Translations under genes and position numbers: made by a program
Notes under the pieces: model-generated
What the model saw: only the letters and a program-made list of their open reading frames with translations
The model's database searches: none
Told to the model about the DNA's origin: nothing
Source of the DNA: Leptolyngbya sp. FACHB-261
GTDB taxonomy: Bacteria; Cyanobacteriota; Cyanobacteriia; FACHB-261
NCBI RefSeq assembly: GCF_014696065.1
Contig: NZ_JACJPL010000027.1
Span: 372,001 to 436,000, forward strand
Direction of reading: 5' to 3'
Length of the DNA stretch: 64,000 nucleotides
Shown: positions 54,020-62,850 of the stretch, in pieces
Numbering within the stretch: position 1 is the first letter of the stretch
How the letters are laid out: each line of letters opens with the position of its first letter

Positions 54020-57000
54020 ATGAAAGCTCTACTGCCCGCTAAGGCTGCAAGATATCAAGCTGCACAGAGGGCGAATAGACAGCTCTTCGGCAAGATAGCA
54101 GGCATGTTTAGTTTGGCCTCAGCTCTGCTAGTTGCCATTGGGGCCATCTCGTATCAGAGCACGATTCAACTTGTTGAGAGCTCTGCCCAAATAGAACAAA
54201 CTCTCCAGACGATTGAGGGTCTTGAAAGCCTCCTCTCAGAGATGAAGGATGCAGAGACGGGACAGCGGGGATATGTTCTCACCGGCACAGAGAGCTATCT
54301 AGAGCCCTACAACACTGCAACTCAAAACGTTAAAAAGCAAGTTAGTAAGCTTCAACAAGCTCTCGGATCTGAGCCCAGACAGAAGCAGCAGCTCGATCAA
54401 ATTGAGACGCTGATTTCACAAAAGCTTGACATTGTTCAAGAGACGATTAAGCTACGTAGGGATGAAAATTTCGAGTCTGCTTTGCAGGTCATTAGAACAA
54501 ACAGAGGCAAGCTAATCATGGATAACATCCGTGTTTTAGTCGGCGAAGCTAAGGCTGAGCAGAATGAGAAGCTGAGACAACTTCAACAGCGAGACCGGCA
54601 AGCAAAAGCCAATGCCAGGAGGACAATTTTTATATTTTCAACGGCGATATTTTTGAGTTCTATCATTATCGTTGTTGCCTACTACCTGATCTATCGTGAG
54701 ATCATCGAGCGTAAGCGAACCGAAGAGATGCTAGCGCAAGAGCGTGATTTCATTGCCACTATCCTAGATACGGTTGGCGCTTTAGTTGTGATCCTCAACC
54801 CTCAGGGACAAATCGTCCGCTTCAACCAAACTTTTGGGCAAATCATTCAGTATTCAGCTTCTGAGATGCAGGGGAAGCATTTCTGGCATTTGTTCTCAAT
54901 TCCTGAGGAAGTTGAGCTGGTACGAACCAACTTCGAGCAGCTTTTGCAGGGAGAGCATTTGGCGCAACATGAGAACTATTTGGTGCCGAAGGGTGGCAAA
55001 CGCCGCTTGATCACCTGGTCTAACACTGCACTACTGAATCCAAAAGGGTCTGTAGACTATGTTATTTATACAGGTATCGATATTACAGAGCGGGATTGGA
55101 TAGAGGCAGAAATTCGACTGCTACAAGTGATTACCCAGGCCATCACTGAATCGGAAAATTTTCCTTCGGCACTTTTGGTGGCGCTCTCACAAGTCTGTGA
55201 AGCAACGGGCTGGAATTACGGCGAAACCTGGCTGCCGCATTCGGATGGCACGACCCTAACCTGTGGTCAAACCTGGTGTAACAATGTCTACGGCCAGAGC
55301 AAGGCTTCTGGAGACGCGCTAGAGCAATTTAGACAAATGAGCCAGGGGTACAGTTTTGTTCCCGACCAAGGCCTGCCCGGACGAGTCTGGAGTTCCAAGC
55401 AACCTGAGTGGATCCAGGATGTTTCAATCCTGCCTGAGGCCCTGTTTATACGGTCCCAAAGTGCGAAAGAATCAGGTCTCAAAGCTGGCTTAGGCGTACC
55501 AATCTTAGCCGGTTCTGAAGTACTGGCTATTTTGGTGTTTTTTATGTTTGATTCTCAACCTGAGGACAAACGACTAGTTGAGCTAGTTTCGACCGTTGCT
55601 ACGCAACTCGGCTCGGTGATTCAGCGTAAGCGAGCGGAAGAGGCTTTACGCCAGAGCGAAGCGCGACTTCAGGCTATTCTAGACAATTCAACAGCTGTGA
55701 TGTATGTCAAGGATATTCAGGGTCGCTTTACCCTAGTGAATCGCTGCTTCGAAACGCTGTTTCACATCGATCGAGAAACAGTCAAAGGCAAAACTGATTA
55801 CGATATTTTTCCTTCAGAAATTGCTGATGTATTTCGTAGTAACGATCAACAAGTTCTGTCTGCTAAAGCCCCTCTGCAGTGGGAAGAAGTAGCTCCCCAT
55901 GATGATGGTTTACACACCTACCTCTCCAGCAAATTTCCACTCTGTGATGCGACGGGGGCTCCCTATGCCGTGTGTGGTATCTCCGCCGATATTACCGAAC
56001 GCAAGCAGATGGAACAGGCGCTCCAACAGGCCAATGAAAAACTCACAGGTTGGGTCAGTGAACTAGAACTACATAATCGTGAGATCAGCTTGTTGGGTCA
56101 AATGAATGAGCTGCTTCAGGCTTGCCTCAGTACAGAGGAAGCTTACGGAGCGATCTCCCGACTGGTTCAGCCCTTGTTTCCAGGGTCGTCGGGTGCAGTA
56201 TTTACGATTAGTGCTTCTAAAAGGCTGGTTGAAGCAGCTTCAACCTGGGGATCAGCATTACTAAGCCAAAAGCTATTTGCCCCTAATGAATGTTGGGCGC
56301 TGAGACGAGGCCGCAGCCACGTGGTCGCTGCTCCTCAGGGTAGTCCGTGTTGCCAGCACCTCCATTCCTCAGATAACCCGCCCTCGGATAATGCTGAGAG
56401 TATTTGCGTACCGATGATGGCCCGTGGCGAGGCACTGGGGCTCCTGTACTTGAATTCAGCGACAGGTGGACAGCTCACAATAGGTCAGCAACGGCTAGCC
56501 GTGACGGTTGCTGAACAAATTGCCCTAGCCCTAGCCAATCTGAAACTACACGAAACCTTACAGCATCAAAGTATTCGAGACCCGCTCACCGGCCTATTCA
56601 ATCGGCGCTACATGGAAGAGTCCCTAGAGCGCGAGTTGCACCGCTCCCAACGCAAGCAGCAACCCGTCGGCATCATTATGCTGGACGTGGATAACTTTAA
56701 GCGCTTTAACGACACCTACGGTCATGAAGCGGGCGATGAAGTGCTGCGGGAACTCGGTCTATTCCTGCGCAAATACACGCGTGGTTCCGACATTGCCTGC
56801 CGCTACGGCGGTGAGGAGTTAACCCTGATTTTGCCCGAAGCTTGCCTGGAGACAACACGGGAACGAGCCGAGCAGTTGCGTGAGGGCATCAAGCACCTAC
56901 ATGTGCAACACCGTCGCCAAGTGTTGGGGGTCGTTACGCTCTCGTTGGGCGTGGCTGTGGTGCCGGACCACGGCTTGAGCAGTGAGGCAGTGCTTCAGGC

Positions 57001-57082
57001 CGCAGACGCCGCGCTCTATCGAGCTAAAGCCCTTGGACGAGATCGGGTGGTAATCGCCGAGTCCATACCAGTTGCGCCTTGA
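54020..57082 (+). CDS. Membrane diguanylate cyclase: CHASE3-PAS-GAF-PAS-GAF-GGDEF
   Basis: A 1020-residue sensor. Membrane helices at about 26-45 and 203-224 enclose a CHASE3 domain (KDAETGQRGYVLTGTESYLEPY). PAS (about 240-358), GAF (365-537), PAS (545-660) and GAF (690-842) domains follow. The C-terminal GGDEF domain has active-site GGEEL at 930-934 and an inhibitory I-site RGSD at 921-924, five residues before it. It should make cyclic-di-GMP from GTP and be subject to product inhibition. No EAL domain is present. The second GAF has several cysteines (SPCCQHLH) but no clear bilin lyase-type motif. Confidence 0.93.
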   Translation: MKALLPAKAARYQAAQRANRQLFGKIAGMFSLASALLVAIGAISYQSTIQLVESSAQIEQTLQTIEGLESLLSEMKDAETGQRGYVLTGTESYLEPYNTATQNVKKQVSKLQQALGSEPRQKQQLDQIETLISQKLDIVQETIKLRRDENFESALQVIRTNRGKLIMDNIRVLVGEAKAEQNEKLRQLQQRDRQAKANARRTIFIFSTAIFLSSIIIVVAYYLIYREIIERKRTEEMLAQERDFIATILDTVGALVVILNPQGQIVRFNQTFGQIIQYSASEMQGKHFWHLFSIPEEVELVRTNFEQLLQGEHLAQHENYLVPKGGKRRLITWSNTALLNPKGSVDYVIYTGIDITERDWIEAEIRLLQVITQAITESENFPSALLVALSQVCEATGWNYGETWLPHSDGTTLTCGQTWCNNVYGQSKASGDALEQFRQMSQGYSFVPDQGLPGRVWSSKQPEWIQDVSILPEALFIRSQSAKESGLKAGLGVPILAGSEVLAILVFFMFDSQPEDKRLVELVSTVATQLGSVIQRKRAEEALRQSEARLQAILDNSTAVMYVKDIQGRFTLVNRCFETLFHIDRETVKGKTDYDIFPSEIADVFRSNDQQVLSAKAPLQWEEVAPHDDGLHTYLSSKFPLCDATGAPYAVCGISADITERKQMEQALQQANEKLTGWVSELELHNREISLLGQMNELLQACLSTEEAYGAISRLVQPLFPGSSGAVFTISASKRLVEAASTWGSALLSQKLFAPNECWALRRGRSHVVAAPQGSPCCQHLHSSDNPPSDNAESICVPMMARGEALGLLYLNSATGGQLTIGQQRLAVTVAEQIALALANLKLHETLQHQSIRDPLTGLFNRRYMEESLERELHRSQRKQQPVGIIMLDVDNFKRFNDTYGHEAGDEVLRELGLFLRKYTRGSDIACRYGGEELTLILPEACLETTRERAEQLREGIKHLHVQHRRQVLGVVTLSLGVAVVPDHGLSSEAVLQAADAALYRAKALGRDRVVIAESIPVAP

Positions 57083-57111: not shown

Positions 57112-58098
57112 CTAGAAGCCTAGCTCCCGCTTTAGTAATTCGATTGAGCGCTCGTCGATATAGTTCTTGGCAGGTAGGATCTCAGGTGGACGGATGCGAT
57201 CATGGCGCGCATCTGCCACAGCTGTTTTCACCGTTTCATAGCTGGCGGGGTCACAAATAATCAAGTCAGCACTGCGGGCAATAGCCCGGATTTTTTGGCT
57301 ATCGTCCAGGTTGGCAGTTACCACCAGCAGGTCATCGCCGCGAACGCTATGCAGAATCACTTCAGCAGCGCGCAAGATACCACTGCTCAGGCAGACCATG
57401 CCCAGGTAGCTGTTGGGTGGCAGGGCGCGAGCGCGTTTGAGCTCGGGGGCGTAATCATGGATATCGACCGCAAACACGCGAACGGCATAGGGTGAAGCCA
57501 GTTTCTGCACGGAACCTAGAAAATAACGGCTGGTAACCACAGTGCCAGCGCGAGTTTTCTGCTGCAAGACTTGGACTAACTCTTCGAGGGGCACCAACTG
57601 GATTGGCAGATCCAGGGACTTCTGAAGCTCCTGGGCCATGAGATCGCCAGTACCAATATCGCTAGTCGGCGCACAAACTAAGACTTGAGCACTACAGCGC
57701 AGGCGCCAGTCAATCTCAGCCAGGAAGAGCTCACGCGCTTGGTTGAGCGTGCACCCTTGCGCCAGCAGTTGATCGAGGCTAGCTTGCACTGTCTTGTAAG
57801 CGTTAGGGTTATCCAGCAGGTAGCGCTGGTCAGTAGAGCCAGGGCTAGGGGTATTGTCCTGGCTGCGCACATAGATGCCTGAGCCAGCGCGCGCTTCGAC
57901 CAAGCCTTGCTCTTCGAGCTGATGATAGACCTTGCTGATGGTGTTGCGATGCAAGCCCGTGCGCATTGCGAGATCACGAGTGCTGGGCAGTCGATGTCCG
58001 GGTGGAAACTGCCGTGATGCAATGGCAAAAGAAATTTGATTGAACAGCTGGGTCGAGGCAGGTATCTCGCTGTCAGCCTGGATATGAAATTGAACCAT
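57112..58098 (-). CDS. GntR family transcriptional regulator
   Basis: A 328-residue regulator. The winged helix is at about 10-75 (QLFNQISFAIASRQFPPGHR, LPSTRDLAMRTGLHRNTISK, VYHQLEEQGLVEARAGSG). The C-terminal 240 residues are neither an aminotransferase nor a UTRA domain; LVCAPTSDIG, VVTSRYFLGSV and LLVVTANLDDSQ suggest a periplasmic-binding-like sensor. It is divergent from the four-gene lipid operon across 312 bases, so that operon is its likely target. Confidence 0.88.
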   Translation of the reverse strand: MVQFHIQADSEIPASTQLFNQISFAIASRQFPPGHRLPSTRDLAMRTGLHRNTISKVYHQLEEQGLVEARAGSGIYVRSQDNTPSPGSTDQRYLLDNPNAYKTVQASLDQLLAQGCTLNQARELFLAEIDWRLRCSAQVLVCAPTSDIGTGDLMAQELQKSLDLPIQLVPLEELVQVLQQKTRAGTVVTSRYFLGSVQKLASPYAVRVFAVDIHDYAPELKRARALPPNSYLGMVCLSSGILRAAEVILHSVRGDDLLVVTANLDDSQKIRAIARSADLIICDPASYETVKTAVADARHDRIRPPEILPAKNYIDERSIELLKRELGF

Positions 58099-58410
58099 TG
58101 CCTATCCTCAAAGCTCTGCTACTAACCTGGTGGTCGCAGCAGGCTCAAATCGAAGCCTGAACTATCTTATTCATAGCCGATTTGCCTGCATCTATGTGCC
58201 AGTCTCGCGATTGGCTCACTGGCATAGCACGTTAGCTGGGCTTAGATTGCCCAAGACTGATCTCCGAGACCCAACGCAATTGAGCAGATTTCCTCCCGCG
58301 CCAAGCGTTTAGGCTGAATCAGTTTTGGAAGTGGCTCACTGCCCCGCTAAATCCTCATTATTGGAAGACATATTCCTGGAACGGCCTATTTGCAAACCAG
58401 GAATTCACGG
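58099..58410. promoter_or_regulatory. Divergent control region of gntR and the lipid operon
   Basis: This 312-base gap contains the inverted repeat TGCCAGT (58197-58203) and ACTGGCA (58218-58224), 21 bases apart from start to start, about two helical turns. This would suit a dimeric GntR protein. AACCAGGAAT before ATG 58411 supplies the ribosome site of the operon. No gene is seen. Confidence 0.4.
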
Positions 58411-59292
58411 ATGACCACCTATCCCCACCTGCCGCTCACCACGCCTGCTACTGCTAGTAGCACGAGCAATGATGTCACGGCTCCGCCACGTCACGCCCGT
58501 CTTGGGGTGCGCCAGCGACTGCTGGGTCTAGGGATTCGCGCCTTGGGTCCCTTAAGTCAGGGGATGCGTATTGGTCTGAGACATGGCTTTGAGTCAGGAA
58601 GTTCCCTTGACTACGTGTACGACAACCAGGCGCAAGGTCGGCTGGGCATTGGCAAAGTGCTCGATCGGGCCTATCTCAATCAAACAGGCTGGCGTTCGAT
58701 CCGCGAGCGCAAAGCAACCTTAAAAGACACATTGCGGGCGCTGGTTGCTTTGCGCTCAGAGCCATTGGTGATTCTGGATATTGCTGCTGGTGGTGGACGC
58801 TACCTGTTGGAGTTTTTAGCTGAGTGTCCCGCAGCGCCAGTACAGGTCATCGCTCAAGATCTCGCACCTGCGGGTCTAGAGCGCGGTCAAGCACGCGCTA
58901 CCCAATTGGGTGTCACAGGGCGAGTACGGTTTCAGACGGGGGACGCGTTCAGCCTCAAAAATCTGCTCAGTATCGAGCCGCGCCCTCAAGTTGTGATCGC
59001 CTCTGGCCTGTACGAGATCTTTCTGGATGACCTGCTGATCCAAACCTCGATGAACCAGATTTTCGAGCTTCTGACAGCGGGCGACCTGTTCATCTTTACT
59101 AATCAACCCCACCATCCTCAACTCGACGATATTGCTGCACTCCCCAATCGCTTCGGTCAGCCCTGGCAAATGAAGCTGCGCCCTACAGCCCAAATGGAAG
59201 GCTGGGCCAGAACTGCCGGATTTGAAATTGTCAGCAGCCGTCCTGCGGACCAAGCGGGCCTGTTCACTCTGACGATTGCTCGCAAGCCATGA
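58411..59292 (+). CDS. Class I SAM-dependent methyltransferase of the YnbC C-terminal type
   Basis: A 293-residue protein. The Rossmann SAM motif ILDIAAGGGRY is at residues 121-131. The preceding region (HGFESGSSLDYVYDNQAQGR, LDRAYLNQTGWRSIRERK) is the pattern I associate with the methyltransferase half of E. coli YnbC (PF12147). The alpha/beta hydrolase half of YnbC is absent. I chose ATG 58411, with CAGGAA upstream, over TTG 58390. The stop overlaps the next start by four bases. It probably methylates a lipid or lipid headgroup made by the operon, which is an inference. Confidence 0.85.
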   Translation: MTTYPHLPLTTPATASSTSNDVTAPPRHARLGVRQRLLGLGIRALGPLSQGMRIGLRHGFESGSSLDYVYDNQAQGRLGIGKVLDRAYLNQTGWRSIRERKATLKDTLRALVALRSEPLVILDIAAGGGRYLLEFLAECPAAPVQVIAQDLAPAGLERGQARATQLGVTGRVRFQTGDAFSLKNLLSIEPRPQVVIASGLYEIFLDDLLIQTSMNQIFELLTAGDLFIFTNQPHHPQLDDIAALPNRFGQPWQMKLRPTAQMEGWARTAGFEIVSSRPADQAGLFTLTIARKP

Positions 59293-59861
59293 ACGGTATC
59301 TATGCGCTCAAACCAGCCTTCCGCAATGCCCTACGCCCACTCCTGAAGCTGCTCTGGCCGGTTCATCCCGATGTTTTGACTTGGTCAGCGATTGGCCTGT
59401 CTGGCCTTCTGGGATTGGCTCTGCACTGGGGGCAGAGCTGGCTGCTAGCCGTGCCCCTGTTGGCTCTACTGCGCACCGTGCTTAATGCTCTCGACGGTTT
59501 GCTAGCAGTGGAAACTGGCAAAGCCCGACCTGCTGGAGAAGTGATAAACGAGCTGGGCGATCGAGTTTCAGATTTACTGGTTCTGAGTGGCTTGTGGCGC
59601 TGGGTTGACCCCTGGTTGTGGGCTAGCGTGACAGTCACCGTACTGTTGGTAAGCTACATCGGCATTTTGGGCAAAGCCTTAGGTAAGGGACGGCAGTATT
59701 CTGGTCCCCTGGGCAAGGCGGATCGGCTACTTCTGATCTCGATCGGCGCATTGTTGAGCCTGTACTGGCCGCAAACCGTTGTCTTTCACTGGCTGCTACT
59801 GAGCTTTTTGCCTCTGGGTGTTTTTACAGGGGCCTTCCGTCTCTGGAGCGTGCTGCGATGA
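59289..59861 (+). CDS. CDP-alcohol phosphatidyltransferase family protein
   Basis: A 190-residue membrane protein with about five helices. The CDP-alcohol motif is recognisable but altered: NALDG (Asn66, Asp69, Gly70), AV where AR is usual (Val74), and GDRVSD with Asp91 and Asp95. The first Asp and the Arg of the consensus are replaced. It would join a phosphatidyl group from CDP-diacylglycerol to an unknown alcohol. It resembles YnbA of E. coli. It overlaps both neighbours by four bases, a strong sign of coupled translation. Confidence 0.85.
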   Translation: MNGIYALKPAFRNALRPLLKLLWPVHPDVLTWSAIGLSGLLGLALHWGQSWLLAVPLLALLRTVLNALDGLLAVETGKARPAGEVINELGDRVSDLLVLSGLWRWVDPWLWASVTVTVLLVSYIGILGKALGKGRQYSGPLGKADRLLLISIGALLSLYWPQTVVFHWLLLSFLPLGVFTGAFRLWSVLR

Positions 59862-60781
59862 ACGAGCTGTCTGGGAGTTGGGCTGATTTTACTGGAGGTT
59901 TTGCTGGGAGTCCTGCGGGGCTAACGCTGGCGCTAATTGCCGGTTTGATTCTCTTGGCTGGCGGCAGCATTGCCTTAAAGGAACACCTGAGTCAGGAAAT
60001 TGACTCTGGCTTGCGTGCTCGCTTTGTGAGCTGGCTGTGGATGATACCTCTGGCGCTGGTGCCGGTGGGCGTAGGCGGCTGGCTGTGGGTGTTGGCGGTT
60101 GGGCTCCTGATCTTGGCAGCGCAACGGGAGTTCTTCAAGCTGGCTCGGCCGGATTGGAATGTCTGGCCAGTCAGCTTGACGGCCTGTGGCTTGAGCCTAA
60201 CGACAGCATCATTATGGCCAGATGCCTTCACGCTGCTTCCTCTGGTGCTGATCGTCCTGCCTCTGATTGAGCGTCTGCTGAACCAAGAAAGTGACAACGC
60301 CCTACGCGATGCCTCAGTCACAGGGTTAGGACTGGTTCTAATCGGTTGGACCTTGGCCCATTTGATTCCATTGAGGGCGGAAGGCTGGGAGGGCGTCTTA
60401 GTCCTTCTGCTGGCAGTCGTTCTCAATGATGTGCTTGCCTACACTGGTGGGCGACTGCTGGGGCAGTACCCTCTGGCCCCCAGGATCAGCCCCAACAAAA
60501 CATGGGAAGGCTTTCTCTGTGGGATAGCAGCATCGGTCACCGTGTTTGCAGCTCTAGGTTACCTGCTACCACAAATCCTCTGGCAGCGACTGCTGTTCGG
60601 TTTGCTCGTTGGATTAGCAGCACCGTTGGGAGACCTAAGTTTGTCACTTCTTAAGCGCGACCTGGCTGTGAAAGATACCGGATCTGTGATTCCTGGACAT
60701 GGAGGGCTGTTGGATCGACTTGATTCCCTGATCTTGAGCGCTCCACTGTTCTTCTATCTGTTGTGCTGGATGGCAGGCTAG
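59858..60781 (+). CDS. Phosphatidate cytidylyltransferase-like protein (CdsA family)
   Basis: A 307-residue membrane protein with about eight helices. The CDS signature is complete: SLLKRDLAVKDTGSVIPGHG followed by GLLDRLD, near residues 264-290, preceded by RISPNKTWEGF. It should convert phosphatidic acid and CTP to CDP-diacylglycerol for the phosphatidyltransferase encoded just before. It resembles E. coli YnbB. A housekeeping cdsA is expected elsewhere in the genome, so this is probably a second, pathway-specific copy. Confidence 0.92.
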   Translation: MNELSGSWADFTGGFAGSPAGLTLALIAGLILLAGGSIALKEHLSQEIDSGLRARFVSWLWMIPLALVPVGVGGWLWVLAVGLLILAAQREFFKLARPDWNVWPVSLTACGLSLTTASLWPDAFTLLPLVLIVLPLIERLLNQESDNALRDASVTGLGLVLIGWTLAHLIPLRAEGWEGVLVLLLAVVLNDVLAYTGGRLLGQYPLAPRISPNKTWEGFLCGIAASVTVFAALGYLLPQILWQRLLFGLLVGLAAPLGDLSLSLLKRDLAVKDTGSVIPGHGGLLDRLDSLILSAPLFFYLLCWMAG

Positions 60782-60787
60782 CGGACT

Positions 60788-61981
60788 ATGACCGACTTTT
60801 ATCCTCCTCGGCTCGATCCTCTCTTCGTGCGTCTCTGCCAGAGTGTCGCACCCTGGTTGGGGCACTGGCAGTACCGCATGGATTTGCAAGTGGATCAGGC
60901 TTGTCTGGATCGGCTGAATCATGTGCGCGATCACCGGCTGCTGCTCCTGCCCAATCACCCTACTTATCACGATTGGATTGCAGTCTTTCTGCTCTCAGCA
61001 CGAGTGGGAGAAGTCTTTCACTATATGGCTGCTCACGAGCGTTTTAAGGGCTCCGAAGGCCGTTTTCTACAACGCATGGGAGCCTACTCGATCAAACGAG
61101 GGCTAGCAGATCGCACTAGTGTTGCCTACACGATGGAACTGCTGATGCAGCCTGCCTGTCGTTTAGTGATTTTTCCAGAAGGGGGCTGCTCATTTCAGAA
61201 CGACACGGTGATGCCATTTCGAGCTGGAGCGGTACAGATCGCCCTGCAAGCTATGAGCAAACTGGTGAAACGGGGCGAACCTCTGCCTGATCTCTATACA
61301 GTGCCGATCAGCCTCAAATATCGCTACACCAGTGATATGGGTCAAGCAATTCATAACACACTAAGTCGATTGGAGCAGGCCCTTCAAATTACCCCTACTG
61401 GCTCAGAGTTTTACCTGCGCTTACGGGCGGTTGCGGAGCGGGTTATGGTGAGCTTTGAGTGCGATTATGACCTGCATTCTGTCGGTATTGAGCATCTTTC
61501 TTGGAACCAGCGGATCCCCCGGATCAAACAGCATGTACTGGAAGCCTGTGAACAAAAACTAGGCCTAGTTACCGCCGCTAACGAACCCATGCGCGAGCGC
61601 GTTTATAAACTGCAACATGTCTTAGAAGCAGAGGCCGAAACTCTGGGTGCACAGGATGCCTGGACCTATGAATCCATCCATAAAGCAGCGGCTCGCCTGC
61701 TCAATTTCGATGCCATTTATGATGGCTATGTTGCGGCGGCACCGACACCAGAACGTTTCTTAGACACGCTCGTCCGGCTAGAACGGGAGGTGTTTGCCAT
61801 TGGTCAGCCAGTGCCGAAAGGTCATCGCAAGGTGATCATTCACATTGGCGAACCGATCAATCTCAAAGATCACTTTCAGCAGTATCAAAAAAATAAATCC
61901 AGCACGGTCAATGCAATCGTGCAGCAACTCCAGCAGACCGTGCAGCACAATTTAGAGGTTGGTTTAAAGGCCAATTGCTAA
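60788..61981 (+). CDS. PlsC-like 1-acylglycerol-3-phosphate acyltransferase
   Basis: A 397-residue protein. The acyltransferase motif H-x4-D is at His57-Asp62 (NHPTYHDW), FPEGG supplies block III, and a glycine-rich RAGAVQIALQAM follows. It is longer than typical PlsC (about 250 residues), with a C-terminal helical extension from about residue 220. It would make phosphatidic acid, feeding the CdsA-like enzyme. It follows that gene after six bases and ends the operon at a small terminator. Confidence 0.85.
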   Translation: MTDFYPPRLDPLFVRLCQSVAPWLGHWQYRMDLQVDQACLDRLNHVRDHRLLLLPNHPTYHDWIAVFLLSARVGEVFHYMAAHERFKGSEGRFLQRMGAYSIKRGLADRTSVAYTMELLMQPACRLVIFPEGGCSFQNDTVMPFRAGAVQIALQAMSKLVKRGEPLPDLYTVPISLKYRYTSDMGQAIHNTLSRLEQALQITPTGSEFYLRLRAVAERVMVSFECDYDLHSVGIEHLSWNQRIPRIKQHVLEACEQKLGLVTAANEPMRERVYKLQHVLEAEAETLGAQDAWTYESIHKAAARLLNFDAIYDGYVAAAPTPERFLDTLVRLEREVFAIGQPVPKGHRKVIIHIGEPINLKDHFQQYQKNKSSTVNAIVQQLQQTVQHNLEVGLKANC

Positions 61982-62014: not shown

Positions 62015-62035
62015 TTCAAGAGTCCTTGAATTTTT
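62015..62035 (+). terminator. Rho-independent terminator of the lipid operon
   Basis: TTCAAG (62015-62020) and CTTGAA (62025-62030) form a 6 bp stem around AGTC, directly followed by TTTTT. The stem is short but the layout is classical. Confidence 0.6.
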
Positions 62036-62052: not shown

Positions 62053-62850
62053 ATGATATGGTTGCTACGCAATTGGGACATGTCTGGGCAGTTGGCTGCT
62101 CCAGGGAGGCGATCGGTGCGCTTGCTAATTTGGCTGGATGTTCTAGTGCTGCTGGCCTGGGGTTTGGCATTGCTGCGTTTCTGGCTCATGGGTCGGTTAC
62201 CCCTGTTTATCCACCCGAATTACATCCCTTTGGTGGTCGCGGCAGGATTGCTGCTTTTGGTGTTGAGCGGGATCCAGGGCTTGCGAACTTTGGCTTTAGT
62301 GCGCCTCCAAGCCCGGGAGATGCGGCACACAACGCTACTTCCGCCCCAGGTAGGCAGCGGCTTATTACTGAGCGTCGCCTTGATCGCGCTAGTCATGACA
62401 CCGCGTCCATTCACTAGCGATACAGCCCTGCAACGGGGGGTCAGCGATACACTGAGCTTGACCAGACCTCAGCCACAGGCGTTCCGTATCAGCGTGGAGC
62501 CCAGCCAGCGCACCCTGCTCGATTGGATTCGCACTTTGAATGTCTACCCGGAACCTGACGCCTACACTGGACAAGCCGTTAAGGTTCAAGGCTTCGTTGT
62601 CTACGAACCGAATCAGCCCAACAATTACTTGACCATTTCTCGATTTGTGATCACCTGTTGCGCTGCCGATGCTTACCCCGTTGGTTTACCAGTCAAGCTA
62701 GCAGGTGATCGCAGCCAATACCCGAAGGATTCTTGGTTTGAGGTGACAGGCAACATGGTTACTGAGTCACTCAATCAACAACGGCAATTAGTCATTCAAG
62801 CGAGTGCTTTTACTCCCATTCCTGAGCCTGCTAATCCCTATATGTACTAG
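62053..62850 (+). CDS. TIGR03943 family membrane protein (YcgQ-like)
   Basis: A 265-residue protein with an N-terminal block of three membrane helices (IWLDVLVLLAWGLALLRFWL, PLVVAAGLLLLVLSGIQGL, GSGLLLSVALIALVMTP). An exported domain follows with YTGQAVKVQGFVVYEP and the family's RFVITCCAADAYPVGLPV. In other bacteria the partner is a DUF318-type permease (YcgR), often adjacent; none is seen here. The function may concern metal handling, judging from such partners, but this is uncertain. Confidence 0.85.
   Translation: MIWLLRNWDMSGQLAAPGRRSVRLLIWLDVLVLLAWGLALLRFWLMGRLPLFIHPNYIPLVVAAGLLLLVLSGIQGLRTLALVRLQAREMRHTTLLPPQVGSGLLLSVALIALVMTPRPFTSDTALQRGVSDTLSLTRPQPQAFRISVEPSQRTLLDWIRTLNVYPEPDAYTGQAVKVQGFVVYEPNQPNNYLTISRFVITCCAADAYPVGLPVKLAGDRSQYPKDSWFEVTGNMVTESLNQQRQLVIQASAFTPIPEPANPYMY

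Follow-up and report, generated by a model that had tools for sequence, protein, structure and literature searches.

The closest described relative of the locus reported here is ynbABCD of Escherichia coli K-12 (b1408-b1411). It encodes YnbA with the fold of CDP-alcohol phosphatidyltransferases (CAPTs), the CdsA-like YnbB, YnbC with a Methyltransf_20 domain, and YnbD with PAP2 plus dual-specificity phosphatase (DSP) domains. In E. coli, overproduction of YnbB raises the glycolipid MPIase, deletion of ynbB has little effect, and YnbB is unable to replace CdsA (PMC6362211). A preliminary description of the DNA studied here called ynbABC functionally unassigned, which largely holds for the pathway but passes over this effect of YnbB. 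A transposon disruptant of ynbC accumulated polyphosphate and the Keio deletion did not (PMC2435150); this observation was not used. In known CAPTs, four aspartates bind two metal ions, and the fourth (D4) is the presumed base (PMC6506517, PMC4634129). Here we report a four-gene operon of Leptolyngbya sp. FACHB-261 in a stretch of 64,000 nucleotides, hereafter the window (assembly GCF_014696065.1, contig NZ_JACJPL010000027.1, positions 372,001 to 436,000). We read it, with a probability of roughly 0.55, as a compact, probably horizontally acquired variant of a widespread ynbABCD-type module that would form a private methylated-phospholipid branch. The most informative new point is a change from Asp to Asn in the active site across the module CAPT family.

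The operon and the housekeeping lipid genes

The four genes lie on the forward strand at the following window positions:
58411..59292, + strand, methyltransferase (Methyltransf_20, class I S-adenosylmethionine type), alternative TTG start at 58390
59289..59861, + strand, CAPT-fold protein P0003
59858..60781, + strand, CdsA/YnbB-type CTP:phosphatidate cytidylyltransferase P0004, CdsA signature intact
60788..61981, + strand, PlsC-like acyltransferase P0005 (PF01553), 397 aa, HX4D and FPEG motifs

Open reading frames and Pfam domains agree with the gene order, coordinates and overlaps first proposed: the methyltransferase and CAPT genes, and the CAPT and CdsA-like genes, share ATGA overlaps, and a 6-bp gap precedes the acyltransferase gene. 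Three of the four proteins matched the expected profiles (Methyltransf_20, PF12147, 236.8 bits; CTP_transf_1, PF01148, 202.6 bits; Acyltransferase, PF01553, 60.3 bits). The fourth, P0003, scored 20.0 bits with CDP-OH_P_transf (PF01066), below the gathering cut-off of 22, so that routine annotation could overlook the CAPT.

Beyond the operon, the genome (6.95 Mb in 36 contigs) encodes a single PF01066 protein, PgsA (C26:432473), whose motif DWLDGYLAR...GKFLDPLVD is the canonical one with four Asp, and a single PF01148 protein, CdsA (C15:422561). These separate canonical genes rule out the operon as the housekeeping pgsA/cdsA set, and its description as a ynb-type lipid module apart from the housekeeping genes stands. 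P0003 fits YnbA (31% identity over 168 residues) and not the genome's own PgsA (no significant similarity by BLAST). P0004 carries the CdsA signature S..KR....KD......HGG..DR.D and is equally near to its own CdsA (100 bits, full length) and to YnbB (102 bits, C-terminal 114 residues only); its tree position is an unstable one on a long branch, and its YnbB-type identity is ambiguous.

The methyltransferase shares 40% identity over 260 aa with E. coli YnbC, to whose C-terminal half it corresponds. Methyltransf_20 was the sole domain found and the Hydrolase_4 half was not detected in the domain search, as previously proposed. In a structure search its nearest PDB match was 3ocj, an uncharacterised protein, followed by assorted small-molecule methyltransferases, so that the substrate is not readable from structure; no papers naming PF12147 were found in the openly licensed literature. 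P0005 (HPTYHD as HX4D motif, and FPEG) belongs to a long type of 397 aa, whereas the usual PlsC of the module is short (about 213-240 aa). The long type is present in five sampled genomes including this one, and the other four carriers have no CAPT, CdsA-like, short PlsC or methyltransferase gene within 1.5-kb flanks. Compared with E. coli ynbABCD, the operon thus has another gene order, an acyltransferase, no hydrolase half and no YnbD; its CAPT falls in the other major clade, and its CdsA-like protein resembles CdsA at least as much as YnbB.

Active site of the CAPT-fold protein

The CAPT signature tested was D1xxD2G1xxAR...G2xxxD3xxxD4. P0003 reads NALDGLLAV...GEVINELGD (N66xxD69GxxAV..G83xxxN87xxxD91): D1 and D3 are Asn, AR has become AV, and D2, G1, G2 and D4 are retained. 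E. coli YnbA has the same two asparagines (NALDG...LNETGD). Across module CAPTs, D3 is Asn in all 69 readable sequences (a count that spans at least eight phyla and includes near-identical Burkholderia rows), D1 is replaced by Asn in 66 of them and by Ala in the other 3, and D2 and D4 are Asp throughout, whereas non-module CAPTs of the same phylum have the canonical four-Asp motif in 15 of 15 control loci (L001, L141-L154).

Two alignments, of 29 and 27 sequences, show no variation at R62, D69, G70, A73, G83, N87 and D91, nor at G139, K143, R146 and R184. The last three are predicted acceptor-phosphate residues: in profile alignments, R146 and R184 fall on R155 and R195 of MtPIPS, two residues that bind the phosphate group of inositol phosphate (PMC4634129), and the 38-residue spacing agrees. 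Invariance across at least eight phyla would fit a working active site. From the kept phosphate-binding arginines and the asparagines at D1 and D3, we infer that the acceptor of module CAPTs may be phosphorylated and their use of metal changed.

The AlphaFold2 model of P0003 (predicted local distance difference test, pLDDT, 95.6) has the class I CAPT fold. The best Foldseek match was the Mycobacterium tuberculosis phosphatidylinositol (PI)-phosphate synthase 6h59 (probability 1.00, template modelling (TM) score 0.69), and structures of phosphatidylglycerol phosphate (PGP) synthases fit worse (TM 0.56). PDB profile matches back the CAPT assignment, and the NCBIfam model of archaetidylinositol-phosphate synthase gave 70.5 bits, below its cut-off of 180. 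The predicted structure therefore supports membership of the CAPT fold, with PI-phosphate synthase as the nearest relative. The mycobacterial and Renibacterium PI-phosphate synthases and archaetidylinositol-phosphate synthases share the class I fold, D2, D4 and both arginines with P0003; they differ from it at D1 and D3 and in the AR pair, and the window genome is without inositol-1-phosphate synthase. This enzyme (PF01658) was likewise not found in six related carriers of the module from the phylum or in E. coli, which makes inositol phosphate unlikely as the general acceptor; judged by this gene content, the acceptor of the module CAPT is probably not inositol phosphate.

More degenerate relatives were also observed, and function may be lost in some branches. 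In a sister family of the phylum, a CAPT-like protein that has lost most of the motif aspartates (e.g. NWTTK...ADKYSE) is encoded beside a miaA-like gene (L137, L138, L139 and also L140). Two Cyanobacteriia carry a subtype with the motif NTLDGLVAEE...YLNRLPGEFTD, in which D4 is replaced too (L182:1909-2535, adjoining SUF-like genes; L183:6870-7508, adjoining an acyltransferase gene). Module CAPTs fused to a C-terminal flavodoxin-like domain (Flavodoxin_5/Flavodoxin_1) occur in the sister family (L034:9223-10311, L035:7761-8849).

Relatives in other genomes, origin and neighbouring genes

A contig scan with a Methyltransf_20 alignment recovered more than 570 relatives, of which the best 80, ranked by likeness to the window methyltransferase, were read. 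Genes were called as stop-to-stop frames with hidden Markov models, and the census set, which is biased toward window-like methyltransferases, comprised 55 loci, each 11 kb or longer, after removal of surplus Burkholderia. CAPT, CdsA-like and Methyltransf_20 genes were co-located in 45 of the 55 loci, the hydrolase half was found in 34 and YnbD in 32. The same genes are found together in relatives belonging to at least eight phyla, which indicates an association beyond chance. An acyltransferase accompanies the three genes in 39 of the 45 loci and lies between ynbB and ynbC in Hafnia and Citrobacter, so that E. coli K-12, which has none, is the exception, and the earlier view of an enzyme added in the window operon has to be given up.

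The acyltransferase of Chloroflexota and of a deltaproteobacterium is part of a larger fusion protein that also contains an AMP-binding ligase and an acyl carrier domain (single proteins at L040:1398-3839, L041:5535-8126 and L048:6693-9374), a combination that may constitute a self-contained enzyme of acyl activation and transfer. In the sister family (L134-L136, L034, L035), a gene for an Aas-like acyl-ACP (acyl carrier protein) synthetase/acyltransferase adjoins the CAPT, CdsA-like and PlsC genes. Together, these fusions and neighbours indicate that a dedicated acyl supply recurs. Some sister-family genomes have a second CAPT close by. Orphan Methyltransf_20 genes occur in Actinomycetota (L039, L038, L094, L049), and those of Streptomyces and relatives have no module genes as neighbours. 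Elsewhere in the window genome, YnbD gave only weak phosphatase-domain matches (about 65 residues; E 5e-4 and 5e-3).

The module is rare in Cyanobacteriia. Full-length PF12147 was present in only four of its genomes (in a sample of 292 genomes of the phylum), and a related CAPT in 30 of 390 Cyanobacteriia genomes, most of them in one genus and nearly all of YnbA type; among these 390, the window type occurred in the window genome only. Other Cyanobacteriia operons (L030-L032, L106, L184, L186) combine the same four functions, with a Methyltransf_20 protein that also has no hydrolase half. They differ in their order (CAPT, CdsA-like, acyltransferase, methyltransferase), in CAPTs that fall in the YnbA clade with Pseudomonadota, and in their acyltransferase, a short PlsC (about 213-223 aa) that shows no BLAST similarity to P0005.

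The CAPT tree has two clades, separated with 100/100 support. One, the YnbA clade, contains Pseudomonadota, other cyanobacteria, Hymenobacter and Rhodopirellula; the second contains Chloroflexota, Actinomycetota, Verrucomicrobiota, Omnitrophota, the sister family outside Cyanobacteriia, and the window. P0003 is thus not grouped with the E. coli-type YnbA of Pseudomonadota, and the window methyltransferase groups with Actinomycetota and Chloroflexota (support 96/82). Vertical descent with the other cyanobacterial copies is unsupported by either tree. The simplest account would be that the operon was acquired horizontally long ago, with some parts replaced locally; because the branches are long, no donor lineages are claimed.

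Two further features flank the operon:
57112..58098, - strand, PlmA, GntR-family regulator P0001, divergent from the operon and outside the module
62015..62035, + strand, weak terminator-like hairpin TTCAAG-AGTC-CTTGAA followed by T5, 2 G-C pairs, found by eye

The preliminary description assigned the operon its own GntR regulator. P0001 (GntR, 50.1 bits) has orthologues in one copy per genome in 48 Cyanobacteriia, nearly full length and with 42-65% identity; among the genomes listed, one without a match is of the same class, and no match was found in the other classes of the phylum that were listed. Judged by these orthologues, P0001 is PlmA, a core cyanobacterial regulator of the GntR family that has been reported to interact with PII-PipX (PMC5083789). 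In eight PlmA loci read with 1.5-kb flanks, module genes stand beside plmA in the window only. A dedicated switch is therefore rejected, since PlmA is a widespread single-copy protein and the operon is rare. As far as the evidence goes, PlmA is a bystander tied to the operon by adjacency alone; regulation of the operon by PlmA in the window genome is possible.

The terminator proposed at the end of the operon is weak: a terminator scan reported none 3' of 61981, and the hairpin seen by eye has a 6-bp stem. Read-through is thus possible into a gene for a DUF1980 family membrane protein (62053-62850), which follows on the same strand about 70 bp past the operon. On the other side, a 1020-aa CHASE3-PAS-GAF-GGDEF diguanylate cyclase (54020-57082) adjoins plmA on the opposite strand.

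Candidate pathway and alternatives

The analysis shows which genes are present, their synteny and phylogeny, the predicted fold, the conserved residues and the separate housekeeping genes; from these we infer the substrates, steps and product of the module as follows. The branch would run from phosphatidic acid through CDP-diacylglycerol (CDP-DAG) and a phosphatidyl-(phospho)alcohol to a methylated lipid. The PlsC-like enzyme would convert lysophosphatidic acid to phosphatidic acid, and the CdsA-like enzyme phosphatidic acid to CDP-DAG. In the CAPT-fold enzyme, a phosphorylated alcohol other than inositol phosphate would displace CMP at a site in which Asn occupies two of the four metal positions, and the Methyltransf_20 enzyme would methylate the head group. 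The result would be a private pool of methylated phospholipid, apart from the PgsA route to phosphatidylglycerol; it may plausibly be a lipid not described so far. YnbD, a frequent partner, brings DSP and PAP2 phosphatase domains of the kind that a phosphatidyl-X-phosphate product would require.

Several points weigh against this scheme. The metal-site aspartates have been called absolutely conserved in known CAPTs (PMC4634129), and with two of the four replaced by Asn, transferase activity is not assured. The window is without the hydrolase and YnbD parts, and E. coli YnbD does not rescue conditional strains for PGP phosphatase or for C55-PP phosphatase (PMC7413402). Inositol-1-phosphate synthase was found in 4 of 9 other module carriers. 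Base composition gives no sign of recent transfer (GC 0.548 in the operon, 0.534 in the window). The order in which the enzymes act is a guess, as is the target of the methylation.

Within the scheme, we tentatively consider the stronger idea that module CAPTs form a distinct catalytic type in at least eight phyla, with Asn at two metal-site Asp positions and changed metal use. They would link CDP-DAG to an acceptor outside the range of known CAPTs, either a polyol phosphate other than inositol phosphate or a sugar-1-phosphate through its phosphate, and give an undescribed methylated phospholipid as product.

A sugar-1-phosphate might instead attack CDP-DAG to give a sugar-PP-diacylglycerol, the precursor of an MPIase-type glycolipid. 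Asn would suit an anionic phosphate nucleophile, the phosphate-binding arginines are invariant and the active site is less acidic; moreover, the YnbB effect on MPIase, whose first intermediate is N-acetylglucosamine-PP-DAG (GlcNAc-PP-DAG), and the failure of YnbB to replace CdsA would fit such a branch (PMC6362211). The same study, however, assigns the reaction to CdsA and YnbB themselves and finds MPIase little altered by ynbB deletion, and MPIase synthesis as described there has no place for a methyltransferase. D4, the presumed base for an alcohol nucleophile, is also invariant in module CAPTs. We regard this branch as unlikely.

It is equally improbable that the operon is a paralogous set for a standard phospholipid (PG phosphate or PI phosphate, PG being phosphatidylglycerol) and makes no new lipid. 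Every part comes from known phospholipid families, and fold and profiles lie nearest to PI-phosphate and archaetidylinositol-phosphate synthases. The replacement of D1 and D3 in every module CAPT, with both kept in canonical CAPTs of the same phylum, speaks against such a set, as do the poorer fit to PGP synthase (TM 0.56), the missing inositol-1-phosphate synthase, the constant methyltransferase partner and the failure of E. coli ynbD to complement the PGP phosphatase strain (PMC7413402).

The loss of two metal ligands throughout the family, and the still more degenerate relatives (L137-L140, and L182/L183 with D4 lost), raise the question of whether the CAPT-like protein has lost catalysis and, as a subunit, binds substrate or acts as a scaffold for the CdsA-like and Methyltransf_20 enzymes. 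We consider this quite unlikely, given that D2, D4, G1, G2, the Asn at D3 and three basic residues are invariant in at least eight phyla. Least likely of all is lipid repair or acyl remodelling that recycles lysolipid and fatty acid without net synthesis, to which the Hydrolase_4 half of many relatives, the common acyltransferase, the AMP-ligase-ACP fusions and the Aas-like neighbours would lend themselves, but which needs no CDP-DAG synthase, CAPT or methyltransferase and meets a window without the hydrolase half.

E. coli ynbABCD has so far had no assigned pathway, and the comparison supplies its usual part list, including the acyltransferase. It splits the ynb module into two old clades, reveals a family-wide change in a near-invariant active site and does away with the supposed dedicated GntR switch. 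With inositol phosphate dropped as a general candidate, the question of the ynb product is narrowed to a few assays.

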